From a virus, in the IMG/VR virus record IMGVR_UViG_3300037246_000681, positions 1 to 37,235 of that record: a stretch of DNA of 37,235 nucleotides. The stretch is one strand, 5' to 3'. Shown here piece after piece: positions 4,608-33,640 of the stretch. A program made the translations under genes and the position numbers. The stretch's first letter is position 1; each line of letters begins with the position of its first letter. The notes beneath the pieces are model-generated. The model saw only the letters and a program-made list of their open reading frames with translations. It was not told where the DNA came from and did not search any database.

Positions 4608-5666
4608 ATGCCCAATCTGCAACTTGTCGCCAATGACTTGTATAACGGCGTGGCGCACTACCTTGGGTATGGCGAAGAGGCTGACCCTCTAGGCACGCTC
4701 GCCCTATGGGATGCCGACCAGTTGGCCGACGTCAAGCGTACTGTCAATGCCGGATACCGGCAGTTTTTGTACCCCCCTCCGGTAGACGACGACAAAGAGC
4801 CCTACGAGTGGTCCTTCCTGACTCCGTTCTCTCAGTTGACATTCACTGCTGGTAGCCAATTCATAGCCCTGCCCCTGGATTTCGGAGGTTTTGTTCTGGG
4901 CGCCGTCTTGCAATCTAGCGGAACGCCCGATGATTTCCAGCACCAAAGGCTTGAGGTTATTTCGCAAGAACGCTTTGAGGCCATTGGCGGATCGACTTCC
5001 CTGACTAGCGGGACCATCAACTACATAACCGTCGTGCGCCCTGAGCAGAGCGGAGTAGGGGAATCCTTCTACAACCTGGGCGTCTATCCGGTCCCCGCAT
5101 CCGATTCGGTGGTCCGCTTCCGCTATATGCGCGAGCCCCTGATGCTAGACGATACGCAAACCATCCCATACGGGGGGGATCGGCACAGTGAAACCCTTAT
5201 GCAAAGCTGTTTGGCGGCTGCCGAACTTACTATGGATGACGAGCACGGCATTCATTGGGAGCGATTCCTTCACCGACTCCGCTTCTCCATCAAGATAGAC
5301 AAGAGAGAGAACGGGAATCTGATTGCGGAAAGCAATTGGCCGGTCGAAGAGTCTGAATCCGAAGAGTCTACCGCGCAGATCACCTATCAGGAACTTCGCC
5401 GGGAGTGCGGCGCTAGGGCCAATTTCGGAAGAGACTTTAAGGCATGGAACCACGAACAGTTCAAGCTGATCGATTTCTGCGTACAGCAGGGATACCGAAG
5501 GTTTTGGGCCCCTCCGGTCATGGAGGGCCAGAAGCAGGCCCATGACTGGTCGTTCAATAAGCCTATCGCCGAACTGATAACGGAAGCCAATATCCACATT
5601 TACGAACTGCCCGCAGACTGCGGCTCCATCGTGGAGGAGTACACATACAAGGGGTTCCTTCCCTAG
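4608..5666 (+). CDS. Head-tail adaptor repeat protein, first part of a split gene (352 aa)
   Basis: Likely ring-forming adaptor between portal and tail, comparable in role to T7 gp11 or P22 gp4. Repeat 1 (residues 1-240) has the order 'LxxxVNAGYRQFLYPPP', 'YEWSFLTPFSQL', 'LPLDFGGFV', 'ISQERFEAI', 'YNLGVYPVPAS..VRFRYMREP' and 'SETLMQSCLAAAELTMDD'. Repeat 2 starts near residue 262 (YQELRRECG...FCVQQGYRRFWAPP, then HDWSFNKPIAEL, then LPADCG) but stops at residue 352, just after the EEYTYKGFLP strand and before the expected I-x-x-V-x-E-x-x-I segment. That missing segment is found at about 8535 in the gene starting at 7878. Start ATG 4608 has AAGGAGG. The truncated repeat may fold only with its other half. 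Confidence 0.7.
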   Translation: MPNLQLVANDLYNGVAHYLGYGEEADPLGTLALWDADQLADVKRTVNAGYRQFLYPPPVDDDKEPYEWSFLTPFSQLTFTAGSQFIALPLDFGGFVLGAVLQSSGTPDDFQHQRLEVISQERFEAIGGSTSLTSGTINYITVVRPEQSGVGESFYNLGVYPVPASDSVVRFRYMREPLMLDDTQTIPYGGDRHSETLMQSCLAAAELTMDDEHGIHWERFLHRLRFSIKIDKRENGNLIAESNWPVEESESEESTAQITYQELRRECGARANFGRDFKAWNHEQFKLIDFCVQQGYRRFWAPPVMEGQKQAHDWSFNKPIAELITEANIHIYELPADCGSIVEEYTYKGFLP

Positions 5667-6805
5667 TGCCAACAACCACGAACATCTACTGCGATTTTGC
5701 TGCCGGAAACGATACTACGGGCGATGGCAGCATCAGCTTGCCCTACAAGACCTTCCAGAAGGGAGTGGATGCGGCCACAGGCGCAGTCCCCGGTGACGGG
5801 GCCGACAAGACCATCTGGCTGAAGAACACAGCCTCGTACACGGAAGAGGTCACAGTTACGGAAGCAGCGGTGGCCGCTCAAGCCGCTCCGCTGATCGTAG
5901 AAGGTTACACTACGACGCCGGGCGACGGCGGCATGGCCACTTTGGACGGGGAAAATACCCGCCTTGCCGGTTTTGCGCTGTTCGCTTCTGGTAACGCCAA
6001 TGTCTACTACTGGGTGTTCAAGAACATTTACTGGAAGAGGTACACCGATGCTGCCGTAGACTCAGTATTTGGGGCGGGAGGCGGTGGGTCGGCGCTAATG
6101 CAACAATTTCTCTTCAAGCATTGCCGATTTAGCGACAACCTAGTGGCAGTTTACGCTAATACCGATTTCTTGTTTGAAGATTGCTGGTTCCACGACAACG
6201 TCACCGCCGTAGATGGGGCTTGGTGGCTAGGTAGTGCGTTACGTTGCATTGTAGAGAACAACACCAACGGATTCCTTATGTCCAAGAACACAGGGGGTTC
6301 TATCTGGAACTCTCTGTTCATCGGGAACACTAACTACAACCTTTCGATAGAGCACGGTATCCCCGTCGTAAATTGCGTCATCGACGGAAGCAACAAGGCC
6401 AGCGCCATAGGCATTAAGTATCCCAATTCAACTTCGTGCATCCCCAAGATACTCAACACCATAATCATCGACTGCACGGTAGCGGTCGAGGGCTACGGGG
6501 CTGGAGCCGAAGAACTATCAGCCATCTTCAATAGCTGCTTCTTCCTGAACGGAAGCGACTTCACTAACGGTGCCGGGCAGAGAACCGGGTGCGTGTTCGC
6601 AGATCCCCTGTTCGTCAATAAGGCCATCAAGGACTACGGAATCGGAACCCTGTCTCCCTGCAAAGAGGCGGGTATGGACCTAAAGCTATTCGACTACCTG
6701 ACCAGCACGGCCAGCAGAGTGGACATCGGCCTACTGCAAGAGAACAGGGTTGGCTCGGGAGACGGAAGCATAGGGGCGCCCTTGCACTTTTCGGTGGAGC
6801 ACTAA
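5666..6805 (+). CDS. Right-handed beta-helix virion protein A (379 aa)
   Basis: Opens with NIYCDFAAGNDTTGDGSISL and YKTFQKGVDAATGAV, the standard entry of parallel beta-helix proteins of the pectate-lyase/tailspike type ('DxxxGNDxxxGTxxxPYxTxxKA'). Repeating short strands with N, C and aromatic ladders follow to the C-terminus (FKHCRF, FEDCWF, CIVENN, VVNCVIDG), ending in an 'FADPLFVNKAIKDYGIG' cap typical of this class. It probably forms a trimeric fibre or spike touching surface glycans; no catalytic pair can be assigned with confidence. The GTG start (5666) shares one base with the upstream stop (TAGTG). It is a paralogue of the next gene, and both lie inside the interrupted adaptor gene. 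Confidence 0.75.
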   Translation: MPTTTNIYCDFAAGNDTTGDGSISLPYKTFQKGVDAATGAVPGDGADKTIWLKNTASYTEEVTVTEAAVAAQAAPLIVEGYTTTPGDGGMATLDGENTRLAGFALFASGNANVYYWVFKNIYWKRYTDAAVDSVFGAGGGGSALMQQFLFKHCRFSDNLVAVYANTDFLFEDCWFHDNVTAVDGAWWLGSALRCIVENNTNGFLMSKNTGGSIWNSLFIGNTNYNLSIEHGIPVVNCVIDGSNKASAIGIKYPNSTSCIPKILNTIIIDCTVAVEGYGAGAEELSAIFNSCFFLNGSDFTNGAGQRTGCVFADPLFVNKAIKDYGIGTLSPCKEAGMDLKLFDYLTSTASRVDIGLLQENRVGSGDGSIGAPLHFSVEH

Positions 6806-6806
6806 G

Positions 6807-7877
6807 GTGAGTGATTATTACGTAGATGGCGCCGTAGGCAACGACAGCAACGCTGGTACCAGCGAAGGTGCGGGCAATGCCTGGGCCACCATCGGCAAGG
6901 CCATCATCGCTCCTATCGCACCCGGAGACCGCCTATTCATCAAAGCCAGCGCCAGCTATGCCGAAGACAACGACTTCTCTACCACAAGCGGAACGGCCAC
7001 CAGCCCTATTGTCCTGGAAGGATACACTACCACGGTGGGCGATGGCGGCAGAGCCACAATTCCGGGCAATGGGGGCTCACGAACCCTTCGGACCGGCGCA
7101 TTCTATTCGGTCAGAAACCTAGTAGTCACCAAGGATAATTCCGGGGGCTCCTCTGCTGGGATTTTATTGGAAGGTACGTCTATCGCTGAGAACTGCGAAG
7201 TAGATGGCCTGTCTACCAGCGGCAGGGGATTTGAAAACGCAGTAGGAACTTATCATGTGGGCTGCTATGCACACGATTGCAATACGGCTGGGTTCAGGTT
7301 CTTTGGAATAGGCGGAGCCTTTTCCTGCGTTACCGATACTTGCTCCGTCGGATTCGCTAATAACGTCGGAACGCTGGGGTACTTCTACTGCATAGCCATA
7401 AACAGCAACAGTACGGGCTTCCAGATGAATTCCAATGGCGACAACGAGCCCATGATTAACTGCACGGTTGATGGAGAAGACCTGGGCGGAACGGGGTACG
7501 TGAATGGGACATCCGGGGGAGTCTCCAAAGTGATAAACTGCGTGGCCACCCGCTGTAACGTGGGTATGCAAGGCAGCGCTTCGTCGGCCACAGAGAGAAC
7601 CTTATCGTCCAACAACTGCCTCTTCGGCAACACGTCCGATTATTCCGGCGGGCAAGTGGCCGCGCCTAACGAAATCACCACGGACCCTACCTTCGTGGAC
7701 CAAGACAGTAACGACTACGGACCAGACACGGGCTCCCCTCTGATATTCGGGGGCCTGGACATGACTGCGGCGACTTGGTTCGCCATGACCGGAGACCCTA
7801 TCGACGTAGGGGCCCTACAGTCCTTGCCGAGCGCGGCCAACATTGCGGGCGCCTTCTTGAATTGGGGAGTAAACTAG
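6807..7877 (+). CDS. Right-handed beta-helix virion protein B (356 aa)
   Basis: Same architecture as its upstream neighbour: YYVDGAVGNDSNAGTS, a WATIGKAI helix, an LEGYTTTVGDGGRATI block matching VEGYTTTPGDGGMATL of the previous protein, then a ladder of short strands with turn Asn and Cys, and an ITTDPTFVDQDSNDYGPDTG cap. Two divergent beta-helix copies in tandem suggest duplication followed by specialisation, for example for two receptor glycans. The GTG start at 6807 has GGAG at 6795-6798 and follows the preceding stop by one base. Tailspike-type adhesion or depolymerase activity is inferred from fold; substrate unknown. Confidence 0.75.
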   Translation: MSDYYVDGAVGNDSNAGTSEGAGNAWATIGKAIIAPIAPGDRLFIKASASYAEDNDFSTTSGTATSPIVLEGYTTTVGDGGRATIPGNGGSRTLRTGAFYSVRNLVVTKDNSGGSSAGILLEGTSIAENCEVDGLSTSGRGFENAVGTYHVGCYAHDCNTAGFRFFGIGGAFSCVTDTCSVGFANNVGTLGYFYCIAINSNSTGFQMNSNGDNEPMINCTVDGEDLGGTGYVNGTSGGVSKVINCVATRCNVGMQGSASSATERTLSSNNCLFGNTSDYSGGQVAAPNEITTDPTFVDQDSNDYGPDTGSPLIFGGLDMTAATWFAMTGDPIDVGALQSLPSAANIAGAFLNWGVN

Positions 7878-9797
7878 ATGGGCTTCAACATAGAACAGAA
7901 CGAATCCATCCCGGCCCGAAGGCGGGTTCCGATGTACGCCCTGGATGATTCGGACGGCAGGACGCCGATAACGAATCTGACCCTAACCACCGGGGACATG
8001 AAGGTCACCAAGAACGGCGGTACGCCCGCCAATCACCTGGGTACGCTGACTACCATTAGCGCCACCAATGGCCTGTACTACTATGAGGCGGAAGCGACCG
8101 AGGTAGATACCGAGGGTCCACTGGGTCTAGTCATCAATAAGACCGGGGTCCGCGACCTTGTCTGGGAAAGTAACATCGTCAATCGAGAGCCGTTCGGCGA
8201 TCTGGTTAAGAGTCAAACCACGGCCAGCAAGAGGAGAATCCTGTTCTATCTGGTGAGCAATGCCGACGCGATCACCCCGGTCACCGGCAAAGTGCTTGCG
8301 GATATGACTATCACGTACAGCAAGAACGGCTCTACGCTAATCGCTTCTGCTGGCACCGTTTCCGAACTGAGCGACGGTTTCTACTACTATGAAGCCACCG
8401 AGTCAGAGGTGGATACGGAGGGGTTCTTCCTTCTGTCCATCGTTCCGGTGACGACCGATGCCTTCAGAAACGTGGCGCGGTTCTCTCTGGTCGCAGAGGC
8501 GGATGGCGACGGCGGGGGCCCGGACGAAGGGGACAACAAGTATCTGATTCCGATTATCCCCGAAGTGCAAATGAGAGCCATGTTCGCCGCCAACCCGATC
8601 ACTGGGCCTCCGAAATTCGTGGCCGTTCGGCCCAAGCTGCTGGACCCCGAAGATTCCGGCAACGCCGGGCAGCGCTTCGAAGTCCTGTTCTACCCGGTGC
8701 CGGATAGAGCCTATACCCTGGAGTACCGATACAACCGGGAATGGCTCAAGCTATCGACCACTAACAAGTACCCTCCGGGCTCGGCCTATCACGGAGAGAC
8801 CATCCTCCAGTCCTGCCTTGCTATGGTGGAACAGCGCATCGAGGGTAAGCGCGGGGAAGATCACGAACTGTTCCTGGAACTACTCGGCGCCTCTCAGCAG
8901 ATCGACGCCAAGCACAAGGCCATAACGCGAACATCGGCGTGGCCGGTCAAGGAATTCGACCCGGAGACTGACGCGCTTCTTACCGGCAAGGGTGACGGGC
9001 CGCCTGGAGACTCCATTGAATCCCTACGCCGCGACGTGGGTATGTACCTCCAGTTCCCCAATAACCCGGACGAATGGTCTTACGATCAAGAAGGGATAGC
9101 CGATACGGTCATCCAGAGCGGGGTGGAGAACTTCCACCTTCCGCCTCTTGTGCCGATGCTAAAGTCGGAGACCCACGTTTGGACCTTCCTGATGCCCATA
9201 GCGACCCTGACCACCGTGGCGGACACCGAAGACTACGACGCGCCTACCGCGTTCGGGGGCCTGCAAGGCGACATGACCTATCAGACCTCTAACGAGGGGT
9301 ACGGCTCTATCCCGGTCGTGGGAGAGGAGCAGATCCGACGCATGAAGATGAACAGTCCCATAGGGACCGGAAAGCCTCAGTTCGCTTGCACCTTCGCCGA
9401 CATTGACAGCGTTCCCGGCTATCAGCAGAACGTCCAGGTCATCCGCCTCTGGCCGACCCCTGATGCGGTTTACGTGCTTGAGTACAAGTACCGACTGGTC
9501 ACCGACACCATAGGCGGACGTGGCTATACGCAAAGCGTAGCCCTGGGCGTTCCCATCCACCGGCAGACCATCCTGGCAAGCTGCTTGGCTGTTGCAGAGC
9601 AGAGGATCAAGGGCATAGCCAACGGGCCCATGTACCGCATGTTCATGGAGCGACTTGCGGCCAGCATCAGCTACGACAGTAACCTCAACAAGCCGGACTT
9701 CCTGGGCTACAACGGAGACAGGTCTAGTGTGAACGGCGGACGATATGCAAACTTCAATAGAGCAACAACTGTCACCGTTGGCGGTGTTCAGTATTAG
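7878..9797 (+). CDS. Ig/BppU-like fibre anchor fused to second part of adaptor repeats (639 aa)
   Basis: Three regions are visible. Residues 1-205 hold two similar beta-domains, recognisable by 'GLYYYEAEATEVDTEGPLGL' and 'GFYYYEATESEVDTEGFFLL', resembling N-terminal Ig/BppU-like anchors of phage fibres. Residues 206-219 are a Gly/Asp linker. From residue 220 the protein continues an adaptor repeat in mid-domain (YLIPIIPEVQMRAM, FEVLFYPVPDRAYTLEYRYN, HGETILQSCLAMVEQ), completing repeat 2 of the gene at 4608. A full repeat 3 follows (SLRRDVG, VWTFLMPIATLTT, IPVVGEEQIRRM, VIRLWPTPDAVYVLEYKYR, HRQTILASCLAVAEQ). Start ATG 7878 is adjacent to the upstream stop with a GGGGAG SD. It may dock the beta-helix fibres onto the adaptor ring. 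Confidence 0.7.
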   Translation: MGFNIEQNESIPARRRVPMYALDDSDGRTPITNLTLTTGDMKVTKNGGTPANHLGTLTTISATNGLYYYEAEATEVDTEGPLGLVINKTGVRDLVWESNIVNREPFGDLVKSQTTASKRRILFYLVSNADAITPVTGKVLADMTITYSKNGSTLIASAGTVSELSDGFYYYEATESEVDTEGFFLLSIVPVTTDAFRNVARFSLVAEADGDGGGPDEGDNKYLIPIIPEVQMRAMFAANPITGPPKFVAVRPKLLDPEDSGNAGQRFEVLFYPVPDRAYTLEYRYNREWLKLSTTNKYPPGSAYHGETILQSCLAMVEQRIEGKRGEDHELFLELLGASQQIDAKHKAITRTSAWPVKEFDPETDALLTGKGDGPPGDSIESLRRDVGMYLQFPNNPDEWSYDQEGIADTVIQSGVENFHLPPLVPMLKSETHVWTFLMPIATLTTVADTEDYDAPTAFGGLQGDMTYQTSNEGYGSIPVVGEEQIRRMKMNSPIGTGKPQFACTFADIDSVPGYQQNVQVIRLWPTPDAVYVLEYKYRLVTDTIGGRGYTQSVALGVPIHRQTILASCLAVAEQRIKGIANGPMYRMFMERLAASISYDSNLNKPDFLGYNGDRSSVNGGRYANFNRATTVTVGGVQY

Positions 9798-17131: not shown

Positions 17132-18211
17132 ATGGGACTTGGCGACCTTGGCATGGCTATGGACCCGCTTTCGTTGATTTTCAGCCTGATCGGCGCTGGC
17201 GATCAGCAGAACATGGACCGAGAGGCCATGGAAGAGAACATCAAGCGCTGGGAAGAAATGAAGGCCATCAACGCGGACACCCGATCCCGGGTAATGCCGC
17301 GCATACGAAGGAATAAGCAAGAGGAATTAGGACTACTCAAGGGTCGAGGCGCCTTCGAGCGAGAGGAAGTCGGGCGAAGGGCGGACGACCGGCTAGATAC
17401 GATTCAGGGTCGTCGGCACGCATCAGTGAGGGGGGCGACGGCGGCTAGTGACGTGCTCGCAAACAGCGGAGAGACCGCCCGGCAGTCCAGCGCGCTGGAG
17501 AGCAAATTGACTGGAGAGCGCCTTGGAGTCGTAAGAAACGCCAACGACACAGAGAACCGCTTTGACGTTGACCTCGCCGGGCAGCTTATGAATGTCACCG
17601 GCTCCCGGCAGGACGTCGCCGGTCAGTCTGGATGGCTGGCGCTTGCGTCGATATTTGGCGATCACGCGCCAGGCCCGCCGCCCCCGGAGGACAACAGCCC
17701 CAGCTTCGGTGAGCAGTTTGGGATGAACGCGGCCAATATGGGCCTACAATTAGGAGCAGGCGCCCTGACGGGGGGCTTTGGCGGGGGGGGCGGCTTCAGT
17801 CCCTTTGGGAAAATGAACCCGATGCAATGTATTGACGGCGCCGCGGAACTACAGACAGAGGGCGGGCATGTAACGCTGGCGAACGTGCCCATAGGCGCGA
17901 AGGTCATGTCGGCCAATGGGACATTCCAGTCTGTCGCAGACAAGGACTACGGAAAGCCTTGGGACAGCCGCAGGGATGATTTCGTCAAGATCGAGTCCGG
18001 GGGCCGTACTCTGATCCTCACCGAAGATCACGTTGTAGGCGGTAAGCCAGCGGGCGAATGGGATCATGAGGAAGTCGGCCCGGTGCATTGCGGCGACATT
18101 CTTCTGGCAGACGGCAGCGACTACATGGCAAACGGGTTCGTGGTGTCTACGCATCCGAACCTTGTGAACGCATCAGAAGAGGTAACGACCGATGCCACAA
18201 ATAATCGTTGA
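17132..18211 (+). CDS. Ejection protein (T7 gp14-like position) with C-terminal Hint domain (359 aa)
   Basis: First of three consecutive large genes in the order of T7 inner-core proteins gp14-gp15-gp16. Residues 1-150 are helical with many Arg/Glu (EENIKRWEEMKAINADTRSR), suited to a core or membrane-channel role. Residues 190-230 are a Gly-rich linker (ALTGGFGGGGGFSPFGK). From C233 the sequence matches a Hint fold: C-I-D-G-A-A-E-L then GGHVTLANVPIGAKVMSANG (block A), RTLILTEDHVVGG with T297-x-x-H300 (block B), and ILLADGSDYMANGFVV near residues 325-338. The intein-ending HN is replaced by STHPN at 339-343, so N-S acyl shift and self-cleavage after residue 232 are plausible but splicing is not. 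Start ATG 17132 has AGGGTAGG upstream. Confidence 0.65.
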   Translation: MGLGDLGMAMDPLSLIFSLIGAGDQQNMDREAMEENIKRWEEMKAINADTRSRVMPRIRRNKQEELGLLKGRGAFEREEVGRRADDRLDTIQGRRHASVRGATAASDVLANSGETARQSSALESKLTGERLGVVRNANDTENRFDVDLAGQLMNVTGSRQDVAGQSGWLALASIFGDHAPGPPPPEDNSPSFGEQFGMNAANMGLQLGAGALTGGFGGGGGFSPFGKMNPMQCIDGAAELQTEGGHVTLANVPIGAKVMSANGTFQSVADKDYGKPWDSRRDDFVKIESGGRTLILTEDHVVGGKPAGEWDHEEVGPVHCGDILLADGSDYMANGFVVSTHPNLVNASEEVTTDATNNR

Positions 18212-19733
18212 GCATGGTTTCGGCGCCGCTATGGAGCGGCACCTGCAACTGTCCGCGCGCCGCGGGGCGCAGCGGCGGCAGCTACAATTGCAGGCCGACC
18301 TAGCCGAAGCGCAGATCAAGGCCCGGCAGAACGAATTGCGCACGCGCATGATTAACGAGTCCATCGGCAAGGCCACCGACATGTTCACTGGCGAACTTCT
18401 CGCCGGGCGGAAGCATGCGCGGGATATGGAGAGTATGCGAGAGGGCGCTGTTCTTGATACCGAGAGGGATCTGGCTAAGCATGGACAGACGCTTGATAGG
18501 GATGCGGTTCAGTATGAGCAGTCGCTTGATAGGGATCTGGCTAAGCATGGACAGACGCTTGATAGGGATGCGGTTCAGTATGAGCAGTCGCTTGATAGGG
18601 ATCTGGCTAAGCATGGACAGACGCTTGATAGGGATGCCCTCGGAGATCAGGCGATATTCGATAGACAGGCCGCCAGGGATAAAGCGACGGATGCAAGGGA
18701 CCAAAACAGGCTAGACCACCCCCGCAAAACGGAAATCGAAAAGGCTCTGAATATGGCTGGTGTGCGGCATCATACCGCAACCCTGAAGGTTTTGCATGAT
18801 ACTGGCGTTGCTGGTTATATTGCGGCCAATTCCGCTAATATCAGAAATTCGCCGAACGAAATGACCCCAGGCGAAAAAACGACCCTTGGCATCGTAAACG
18901 AGGAAATCCGTAATTACACCAGCGGCTATCAGGATGGAACCGTCCCGGGGCCGGATTTCGTTGCCGCCATGACGAACGCCGCGATGAACCTCGCAGACAT
19001 AAACCCCAGCGGGCCGCGCAAGAAGACCCTGAAAGACGAGGTCCGGCACATAACGGGAACGGGCTTCGGTGAAGGAGGAAACATGATGCGAAAGTACGCC
19101 TCTTTCAGGATCAACAAGAACGGAGAAGCATTCCTGGCAGGATACCCTGATGACCACCTGTCTAAGCAACAGGATCGCATCGACGCAAAGGGGGACGCTT
19201 ACCACAAACCCTTGTTCGAAGAATACGATGTTATTCCCGCCGGATCACCAGCGCAAAAGAAATGGCTTAAAGAGCACGACGACAAGGTTCCCACGGACTA
19301 CACGCTCATAGACCGACAAGCCCAATCCATGAGGCTATATGAGGGTATGTGGTGGGACATCCGTAACGGCCAGGGGAACATCACGCAGGCAGAGAAAGAA
19401 GAACACATGAAGGTGCTGGCGCGGATCGCAGTAGAAGAGGCTTCGGATGACATTAAAGAGCCCACCAAGGAGGGGCAGGAAATAGCCAGCGAGAAAGAAC
19501 GATTCCAGGCCATGTCGGACGCCGCTGGTGGGGACTGGATTCCAACAGGCGTCCCTAAGACGATGGAAGACGGAACGAGGTTCCAGGCGTGGTTCAAGGA
19601 CGGAGAGGCCACATGGAGGCCGTGGCCGGTTGCGCGTGGCGGATACGGCTACCCGTTCCCTGGAGCCCAACGAGGCAAGGAAGGCTATATCGGCGGCTGG
19701 CCAATGGGACAGACGGACAAGAGACAGGAATAG
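18192..19733 (+). CDS. Putative ejection protein (T7 gp15-like position), coiled-coil (513 aa)
   Basis: Overlaps the upstream gene by 20 bases; start ATG 18192 has GAGGT at 18179-18183. Residues 15-60 are basic and alpha-helical (LQLSARRGAQRRQLQLQADL). Residues 93-149 are built from an 11-residue helical unit repeated (DLAKHGQTLDR / DAVQYEQSLDR). Residues 150-513 are mainly helical, soluble and mixed in charge, with KEEHMKVLARIAVEEASDD and a terminal YGYPFPGAQRGKEGYIGGWP. Helical, oligomer-forming proteins between gp14- and gp16-like genes form the DNA ejection conduit in T7-like phages. The assignment rests on order and composition, since sequence identity to a known gp15 is not visible. Confidence 0.55.
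   Translation: MPQIIVEHGFGAAMERHLQLSARRGAQRRQLQLQADLAEAQIKARQNELRTRMINESIGKATDMFTGELLAGRKHARDMESMREGAVLDTERDLAKHGQTLDRDAVQYEQSLDRDLAKHGQTLDRDAVQYEQSLDRDLAKHGQTLDRDALGDQAIFDRQAARDKATDARDQNRLDHPRKTEIEKALNMAGVRHHTATLKVLHDTGVAGYIAANSANIRNSPNEMTPGEKTTLGIVNEEIRNYTSGYQDGTVPGPDFVAAMTNAAMNLADINPSGPRKKTLKDEVRHITGTGFGEGGNMMRKYASFRINKNGEAFLAGYPDDHLSKQQDRIDAKGDAYHKPLFEEYDVIPAGSPAQKKWLKEHDDKVPTDYTLIDRQAQSMRLYEGMWWDIRNGQGNITQAEKEEHMKVLARIAVEEASDDIKEPTKEGQEIASEKERFQAMSDAAGGDWIPTGVPKTMEDGTRFQAWFKDGEATWRPWPVARGGYGYPFPGAQRGKEGYIGGWPMGQTDKRQE
18468..18637 (+). repeat. 66-bp in-frame tandem repeat (2.6 copies)
   Basis: A 66-bp unit starting GATCTGGCTAAGCATGGACA begins at 18468, 18534 and 18600; the first two copies are complete and apparently identical, and the third matches until 18637. 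Each unit encodes two 11-residue half-repeats (a hendecad coiled-coil period). The near-identity suggests very recent expansion or contraction by slippage or recombination. Confidence 0.9.
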
Positions 19734-28044: not shown

Positions 28045-28296
28045 ATGAACGAACCACAGATTTTCACCCTCGCACAAGCCGCTGTAATCATGCAATGCTC
28101 CGCGCAGACCTTGCGGCGACATATCGACCAAGGGGCCCTGCGGAGCATCCGGCGCGGCACGGGGCAATACCTCGTCCACGCCTCTGATATTCGAGCGTTT
28201 TTAGGACTGGACCCAGACGACACCCTACTTCCGGTTGAAGGAGAAACAGATGACCACGGACCTAGCGAAGATGTCCCCGCTGCAACTGATGGCTGA
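28045..28296 (+). CDS. MerR/excisionase-type HTH regulator (83 aa)
   Basis: Residues 1-55 form a winged helix-turn-helix of the excisionase/MerR type: FTLAQAAVIMQCSAQTLRRH (helix-turn-helix), then IDQGALRSIRRGTGQYLVHA (wing with basic residues) and DIRAFLGL. The rest is an acidic tail. It is the first gene of the plus-strand early operon, and such proteins often control early promoters or recombination directionality; no integrase is in view, so regulation is more likely than excision. The ATG has only a weak AGG upstream. It overlaps the annealing-protein gene by 47 bases. Confidence 0.8.
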   Translation: MNEPQIFTLAQAAVIMQCSAQTLRRHIDQGALRSIRRGTGQYLVHASDIRAFLGLDPDDTLLPVEGETDDHGPSEDVPAATDG

Positions 28297-29083
28297 TCGG
28301 TGCAAGTACGACCCTGAACAGATGGAGAGGGTGCTGATGGGCACCGTCATCCGACCCGGCAAGAACGGGAGCGCCTCACCCGAAGAGGTCGTAGCCTTCT
28401 GTATCGTGGCCAACGAACTTGGCCTGAACCCACTCAAGAAGGAAATATATGCTTTCCCTAACAAGGGTACTATCGTCCCCGTAGTCTCCATTGACGGGTG
28501 GTGCAACATCGTCCACCGCAAAAAGGGATTCAATGGGGTTTCCTTCGAGGAGAACGAGAAGGACGGCAAGCTGGTTTCCACGACCTGCGCCATGCACGTT
28601 AAGGGCTTAGACATGCCCGTAATGGTCACAGAGCGACTAGATGAGTGTGTTAGGCCCACCGAGCCGTGGAAAACCATGCCCCGGCGCATGCTCCGCCACA
28701 AGTCGTTCATACAGGCTGCCCGCATCGCGTTCAGTATGGGCGGCATCTACGATGAGGACGAAGGCAAAGAGGTCTTCGAGCGTGAAGTCGATGTAACGGT
28801 CCTGAGCAAGCCGAAGGCTGTCGTGGAGCAGGCCCCCGCCAAGCCCGCAGCACCCCCTGTGCCCCCGGCGCCCGCCCCGACACCCACAAGGGGGTTCATC
28901 AGCGAGGCCCAAGTAAAAAGACTCTGGTCTATCGCCAAGGGTGCTGGCGTCTCCAATGCGATAGTTAAGAAGCACCTGACCACACAGTACGGGATCGAGT
29001 CGAGCAAGGGCATACCCAGGGAACTGTATGAGGAGATCTGCGCATGGTGCGAATGCAAGCCGCCACCCGAGACACAGGGCTGA
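28250..29083 (+). CDS. bet: Single-strand annealing protein, Bet/Red-beta family (277 aa)
   Basis: Recombinase that anneals complementary single strands in phage recombination. The core (residues 10-185) has the Bet signature: EEVVAFCIVANELGLNPLKK followed by EIYAFPNKGTIVPVVSIDGW, and then MPRRMLRHKSFIQAARIAFS. Residues 190-225 are a Pro/Ala-rich linker, and the C-terminus (ISEAQVKRLWSIAKGAGVSN) is a helical domain like that used for SSB or nuclease partners. Start ATG 28250 has GAAGGAG seven bases upstream; a TTG at 28235 is less likely. The next gene encodes the expected exonuclease, overlapping by 40 bases. Confidence 0.9.
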   Translation: MTTDLAKMSPLQLMADRCKYDPEQMERVLMGTVIRPGKNGSASPEEVVAFCIVANELGLNPLKKEIYAFPNKGTIVPVVSIDGWCNIVHRKKGFNGVSFEENEKDGKLVSTTCAMHVKGLDMPVMVTERLDECVRPTEPWKTMPRRMLRHKSFIQAARIAFSMGGIYDEDEGKEVFEREVDVTVLSKPKAVVEQAPAKPAAPPVPPAPAPTPTRGFISEAQVKRLWSIAKGAGVSNAIVKKHLTTQYGIESSKGIPRELYEEICAWCECKPPPETQG

Positions 29084-32978: not shown

Positions 32979-33225
32979 CCCGGAAGGCATGAACGATGAG
33001 CAGCTTGAGTACCTGATGTGGCTGGAGGCACAGTTGCAGACCGTCTGTGAAATGTCCCAGTTGGTCATGGCGGAACTGGCGGACCTGGCCGAGAAGCTAG
33101 GCCCCGATAAAGACATCCTCGAAGCAATGCAAGCAATAAAGGACAGATTCGATGAACACTCCAGACTATTCGAAACTGGTGGAAGCAAGTTGGACGTTGA
33201 GGATCACGGGGAAGCCGGGGAGTAA
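32965..33225 (+). CDS. Hypothetical helical protein (86 aa)
   Basis: Small acidic, mostly helical protein (DEQLEYLMWLEAQLQTVCEM, then AELADLAEKLGPDKDILEAM). ATG 32965 lies in the end of the previous gene with GAGGGCAGC upstream. It overlaps the RusA gene by 74 bases. No family recognised; its placement suggests a regulatory or accessory partner of the recombination set. Confidence 0.55.
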   Translation: MTPPDPEGMNDEQLEYLMWLEAQLQTVCEMSQLVMAELADLAEKLGPDKDILEAMQAIKDRFDEHSRLFETGGSKLDVEDHGEAGE

Positions 33226-33640
33226 AGGATCGTGGCGACCGATCAAGACTAAGGCCGGGGGAGTCTTCCTCAAAGCTATGGACAAGGGGATGTCAGAGTG
33301 GACGAATCTGCTGCGCATGAACTGGGATATGATGGCGGCAAAGCCAGCGGGCCCCACCGCTCACGCCTATCAAGTCTCCTTGGAACTATTCTACGTCAGA
33401 CCCAAAAATCACTTCGGCACAGGCCGGAACGCGAAAACCCTAAAGACTTCCGCCCCATTCCGCTGCATCACAACGCCGGATGTTGATAAAGTCGCCCGAG
33501 CCGCCTTGGACGCACTCACCGGCTACGCCTGGAACGATGACAAGCAGGTCGTGGCGCTGGGAGTATTTAGATCATGGGCCGATGACCCCTATACCAGAAT
33601 GACCATTATGCGCTTGCACGACGATCCGCCGCCCATGTAA
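33152..33640 (+). CDS. rusA: Holliday-junction resolvase, RusA family (162 aa)
   Basis: Endonuclease cutting four-way DNA junctions. The defining region is present: TPDVDKVARAALDALTGYAW then NDDKQVV, matching the RusA pattern P-D-x-D ... DAL-x-G ... D-D-x-Q-V; catalytic acids are likely D110, D112 and D129/D130. The N-terminus (WTLRITGKPGSKGSWRPIKT) resembles the start of RusA strands with conserved Gly and basic residues. ATG 33152 has AAAGGA upstream. With Bet and the nuclease it completes a recombination set able to process concatemers before packaging. Confidence 0.88.
   Translation: MNTPDYSKLVEASWTLRITGKPGSKGSWRPIKTKAGGVFLKAMDKGMSEWTNLLRMNWDMMAAKPAGPTAHAYQVSLELFYVRPKNHFGTGRNAKTLKTSAPFRCITTPDVDKVARAALDALTGYAWNDDKQVVALGVFRSWADDPYTRMTIMRLHDDPPPM

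Follow-up and report, generated by a model that had tools for sequence, protein, structure and literature searches.

A tail-ring adaptor of an uncultured phage whose second domain copy is encoded in two genes, on either side of beta-helix genes and Ig-like domains

Organization of the adaptor locus

The window, that is, the whole stretch of 37,235 bases analysed here, carries four adjoining genes on its plus strand (Table 1), the first and last of which encode the adaptor (tail-ring) protein of an uncultured short-tailed phage with three copies of the PF24175 domain, R1, R2 and R3. R1 and R3 are complete, while R2 is divided between the products of the first and last genes: according to the alignment to R1 and R3, its N-terminal half (R2a) comprises helices 1-2 and the first strands of the dock, and its C-terminal half (R2b) comprises the remaining dock strands and helices 3-4. 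The C-terminal tail of single-copy adaptors is present, among the window copies, only on the last one, R3. The halves of R2 are separated by 2,871 bases (5664-8534; 957 x 3), which contain two beta-helix genes and two Ig-like domains, the latter fused to R2b. The initial annotation had proposed four ORFs at these positions, a break in the middle of repeat 2 between the genes at 4608 and 7878, its remainder after residue 219 of the 7878 product with a full repeat 3 next, and duplicated beta-helix genes and Ig-like domains within about 2.87 kb in between. All of this is borne out by the ORF list and BLASTP, and the fusion point can be refined to near position 8535, after a 12-residue, Gly/Asp-rich linker that joins the Ig-like domains to R2b in frame.

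Table 1. Genes, domains and translation signals of the split adaptor locus.
Feature	Coordinates	Strand	Product or residues	Remarks
First gene (P0001)	4608-5666	+	352 aa	R1 + first half of R2
R1, complete adaptor repeat	4608-5378	+	P0001 1-257	PF24175, AF2, Foldseek
R2a, repeat 2 N-terminal half	5379-5663	+	P0001 258-352, 95 residues	C-terminus of first gene
AAGGGG, Shine-Dalgarno-like site	5649-5654	+		Ahead of BH1 start; sequence
TAGTG, stop/start overlap	5664-5668	+		First gene/BH1; sequence
BH1, predicted parallel beta-helix (spike/fibre-type)	5666-6805	+		phrog_4577 tail protein, E 1e-5
BH2, second beta-helix protein	6807-7877	+		Disaggr_assoc, E 0.0017; BH1 paralogue
Last gene (P0004)	7878-9797	+	639 aa	Ig1, Ig2, linker, R2b, R3
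Ig1 + Ig2 + linker	7878-8534	+	P0004 1-110, about 111-207, 208-219	
R2b, repeat 2 C-terminal half	8535-8996	+	P0004 220-373, 154 residues	
R3, complete adaptor repeat	8997-9797	+	P0004 374-639	PF24175, AF2, Foldseek

The modules between the halves occur in pairs. BLASTP identifies BH1 and BH2 as paralogues (28%, E 9e-28), and likewise Ig1 and Ig2 (36%, E 7e-16). The Ig part of P0004 is a low-confidence region of the AF2 model, and its likeness to the N-terminal Ig-like domains of relatives (see below) is weak (hhalign probability 21%, E 0.001). BH1 and BH2, which are separate ORFs, probably supply subunits of a spike or fibre and are probably translated through coupled starts; attachment of their products to the ring would be hypothetical. 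Every start 3' of the split is preceded by a Shine-Dalgarno-like site, including GGGGAG ahead of ATG 7878, and the genes abut or overlap one another. Across the junctions, G+C stays within 0.54-0.59 and codon use is similar on both sides.

The locus is flanked by the major capsid gene (2174) and gene 12161, an order also found in L004, and by its position gene 12161 would be the nozzle gene. Since neither a terminase nor a portal is recognised anywhere in the 37,235-base window, the record is probably partial. Elsewhere in the window lie RecT and RusA genes (28235-29083 and 33152-33640), a gene (17132-18211) whose product resembles a Hint/intein-type domain in its C-terminal part (CIDGAAELQ..., TEDHVV) with no Pfam match, and another (18192-19733) whose product contains the short tandem repeat DRDLAKHGQTLDRDAVQYEQSL.

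Fold of the repeats and conservation of the divided copy

P0004 matches PF24175 (SU10_adaptor) with 33.4 bits, above the cutoff of 27, and P0001 scores just below it with 26.3; the E-values are 8e-8 for R3 and 1.2e-5 for R1, and 23 of 26 aligned family members match the same model. The AF2 models of R1 (pLDDT about 92; helix-helix-beta-helix-helix) and R3 (pLDDT about 90; two helices, beta strands, two helices) both show a bundle of helices in which a beta fibre-dock follows helix 2 and precedes helix 3. Searched by sequence against solved structures, the adaptor-family profile gave no match, and fold comparison alone found the relationship: Foldseek matches include the solved adaptor rings of SU10, VP1 and cyanophage A4 (probability 1.00) and also those of crAss001, with R3 matching SU10 7z47 at E 2e-5 and probability 1.00.

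R2 was modelled as separate halves, and the models put the split within the beta barrel that separates helix 2 from helix 3. R2b is predicted as a strand, a helix, three strands and two helices, with pLDDT mostly 80-93. In the single-chain model of P0001, the strand region of R2a has fair AF2 confidence and zero DSSP strands, which might be expected if the partner strands sit on the other chain and would also be compatible with an unfolded tail.

When R2a and R2b are joined, the resulting sequence aligns end to end with both R3 (32% over 227 aa, E 5e-32) and R1 (30%, E 2e-29), in agreement with the initial proposal that the three repeats be compared in this form. Each half matches only the corresponding half of the intact repeats in BLASTP: R2a is 33% identical to the N-half of R1 and 31% to that of R3, and R2b is 35% identical to the C-half of R3. 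The mutual identity of the three adaptor copies is 24-31%. Against a profile built from relatives only, with every window sequence left out, joined R2 scores 200 bits, R3 204 and R1 158, and the separate halves score 86 (R2a) and 106 (R2b); intact relatives scored leave-one-out reach 110-274 bits. Of 82 conserved columns, joined R2 keeps 69, R3 67 and R1 58, the average of the relatives being 83%. The break lies in a beta-hairpin turn of the predicted fibre-dock barrel, between the helix 1-2 and helix 3-4 halves, and removal of the insert restores a hairpin of 17 residues, the modal length (79 of 116 domains).

Adaptor rings are usually described with one intact domain per chain. Copies 1 and 3 follow this rule of the adaptor family, and copy 2, lying in two ORFs, departs from it. 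The conservation of both halves of R2 argues against decaying remnants and, as far as can be judged from sequence, suggests that both are in use. Homology further suggests that R2a and R2b fit together as one fold.

Relatives of the adaptor and a second split copy

Profile searches with the capsid protein and the adaptor gathered about 140 IMG/VR loci, and adaptor domains come from 108 sources (about 110 contigs), among which the window is counted and some represent the same phage from different samples. Plain single-copy adaptor genes are found in 79 of the 108. The copies per relative range from one to seven and are either fused or located in separate genes. For example, three separate complete genes are present in L040/L069 and two in L041, and fused copies number two, three, four and seven in L152, L155, L149 and L024, respectively. 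In the extreme case, L024:3208-8268 (also L007 and L010), seven uninterrupted copies form one frame of 1,687 residues; the middle copies 2-6 are most alike (59-75%), and the last is only 37-41% identical to them. Uninterrupted homologues, sought as the initial annotation had suggested, are therefore available as single genes, as separate genes and as tandem fusions.

Other domains are also attached to the adaptor. Inserted domains of 60-80 residues (about 260 in L018) recur in one dock loop, nearby but different from the turn split in the window (L004, L018, L028, L030, L037, L039, L042, L048, L150-L152 and L155). In 57 loci, an N-terminal stretch of about 100 residues that looks like an Ig domain precedes the adaptor domain, and an Ig-like-type domain is ahead of it in L004 and L152 as well. 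More than 50 contigs (L078-L142 and L145, e.g. L145:5707-6807) have a conserved domain of ~100 residues (MSFVRNEAVTGFTF...) before a single adaptor domain. Because such N-terminal fusions are common in the group, the attachment in the window, at first regarded as unusual, is only partly so: what sets it apart is a fusion inside the fold.

Single-sequence scans of IMG/VR with P0001, P0004 and the product of gene 12161 gave zero matches, and tblastn in INPHARED with P0001, P0004, the capsid protein and the L145 and L153 proteins found no cultured relative. In genome collections, adaptor relatives are mostly found in Phycisphaerae/Planctomycetes MAGs, a hint at the host group that may merely reflect binning. 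Contigs L156-L159 are adaptor relatives from such MAGs, and L156 is identical to L027 over the adaptor.

Homologues of the two genes are not always separate and complete. Among the about 110 related contigs, only one other, L153 (IMGVR_UViG_3300037628_000362), encodes three copies at 5980-8318, the second of which is broken at the same hairpin turn as in the window. Here, R1 is encoded alone, the first half of copy 2 forms a gene of its own, and the second half shares a gene with R3, to which it is fused; this last gene starts in an ATGA overlap with the stop of the middle one. No cassette lies between the halves, and R2b is preceded by a 28-residue extension. Each split case is known from one contig, so that the L153 split could be a frameshift error.

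Readings of the split gene

The explanation considered best is that the locus encodes a three-copy adaptor in two polypeptides, whose halves complete R2 and display the Ig arm at the fibre dock; its probability may be put at about 0.6. Product 1 (R1 and R2a) would meet product 2 (Ig1-Ig2-linker-R2b-R3), and R2 would be completed by fragment complementation, suggesting a ring domain that forms only when two proteins meet. Such complementation would lock both proteins together and interlock the copies of the ring. The Ig1-Ig2 arm would then project from the fibre-docking barrel, the position at which the adaptors of T7 and SU10 hold fibres, their beta part being the fibre dock (PMC6702177; PMC9509320). 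By analogy with crAss001, in which paralogous ring proteins are stacked in five rings (PMC10172136), stacked dodecameric rings are the most likely arrangement of the repeats. They are favoured because up to seven copies in relatives do not fit one 12-fold ring, and the seven copies of L024, with the middle ones most alike, fit stacking better than alternation. The seven copies in L024 led to the rejection of a model in which the repeats alternate in a single 12-fold ring (three copies x four chains). The C-terminal tail of R3, shared with single-copy adaptors, may hold the portal.

Other readings differ in how much of this they would remove. An assembly chimera or sequencing error would make the split an artefact, and it is true that the window comes from one metagenomic virus record (37,235 bases) and that no second copy of the locus was found. 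The coupled TAGTG and TAG-ATG junctions with their Shine-Dalgarno sites, the similar composition and codon use across the junctions, the in-frame fusion of the Ig domains and the existence of L153 as a second split case nevertheless make this very improbable. Still harder to credit is that an intron, an intein, programmed frameshifting or bypassing reunites the halves ahead of translation or in its course. R2a and R2b share a reading frame across the 2,871 bases between them, but rejoining would discard the Ig domains fused in frame to R2b together with genes that have their own starts. An Rfam search of the window gave zero matches, and, by inspection, TAG 5664 is not preceded by a slippery heptamer and the junction lacks intein motifs; the readings as a programmed frameshift, intron or intein were dropped on these grounds. 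It is also unlikely that R2a and R2b are leftovers of a rearrangement of two truncated genes that do not fold together, the ring using only R1 and R3. The separate-gene copies in L040/L069 and L041 could give broken ends by recombination, and many adaptors carry a fused Ig-like domain at the N-terminus. However, the breakpoints are exactly complementary and yield the modal hairpin length, both halves are conserved as well as intact domains, and L153 is split at the same turn.

A different question is the order of events, which would change the history and leave the function of R2 as it is. A cassette had been supposed to enter an intact structural gene. Of this supposition, the split of a real domain in mid-fold with its signatures kept is supported. 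The insertion history is less certain: as copy 2 of L153 is divided at this very turn although it lacks a cassette, the split may be older than the cassette. The origin could be insertion into an intact gene, or entry of a cassette at the junction of a split gene pair such as that of L153. That the split came first, with the cassette entering later at a coupled-gene junction, has a chance only slightly short of even. As in the window, R2b of L153 is fused to R3, and P0004 matches this R2b-R3 gene far better (E 4e-53) than the best other record tested (2e-34). A sister relationship of the two R2s is not rejected in an AU test (p 0.77). On the other side, one tree groups the R2 of the window with L155 copy 1 (bootstrap 93) and that of L153 with L152 copy 1 (87), pointing to independent splits, although the adaptor domain trees are poorly resolved; in addition, R1 and R2a are fused in the window and separate in L153. 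The broader proposal that a split middle ring domain on interlocking polypeptides is a fibre mount at the dock hairpin, arisen at least twice in the group and each time at this turn, is put forward tentatively, as the less probable outcome.

If fragment complementation in the ring is true, the locus would illustrate how changes to a structural gene, here with modules of fibre type sitting exactly at the break, allow a phage to modify the equipment with which it binds its host. It would also be a natural example of such complementation in a virion, open to experimental test. The survey itself reveals an adaptor family of unusual modularity, with one to seven copies, loop insertions and Ig fusions.

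Among known systems, SU10 gp11 (PF24175; PDB 7z47) resembles the window adaptor in profile match, predicted fold and a helix bundle with a fibre-dock barrel in the middle. SU10, however, has a single copy on one chain and separate fibre proteins, whereas the three copies of the window are spread over two chains, copy 2 being divided within the dock, where an Ig arm is fused to it. T7 gp11 (PDB 7box) shares the four-helix bundle, the five-stranded fibre dock and the C-terminal portal-embracing segment; it is one uninterrupted domain, unrelated in sequence at this level, and its fold match is weaker. Several diverged adaptor-fold copies in one genome, three in the window, recall crAss001, in which rings R1-R4 (PDB 7qoj), also matched by Foldseek, are several paralogous adaptor-fold proteins per virion; those ring proteins are separate and complete, whereas the window copies are fused and one is split. 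Within the group, L024/L007 likewise carry adaptor copies of this family in tandem, directly downstream of a fibre gene that bears an Ig domain, but all seven copies are uninterrupted in a single frame. The 57 N-terminal Ig-adaptor fusions are comparable in their general plan, but the Ig of the window is fused inside the fold and its profile similarity to theirs is weak. L153 is alike in its three copies, the turn at which copy 2 is split and the fusion of R2b to R3, and differs in having R1 in its own gene, neither cassette nor Ig between the halves, and the N-terminal extension.
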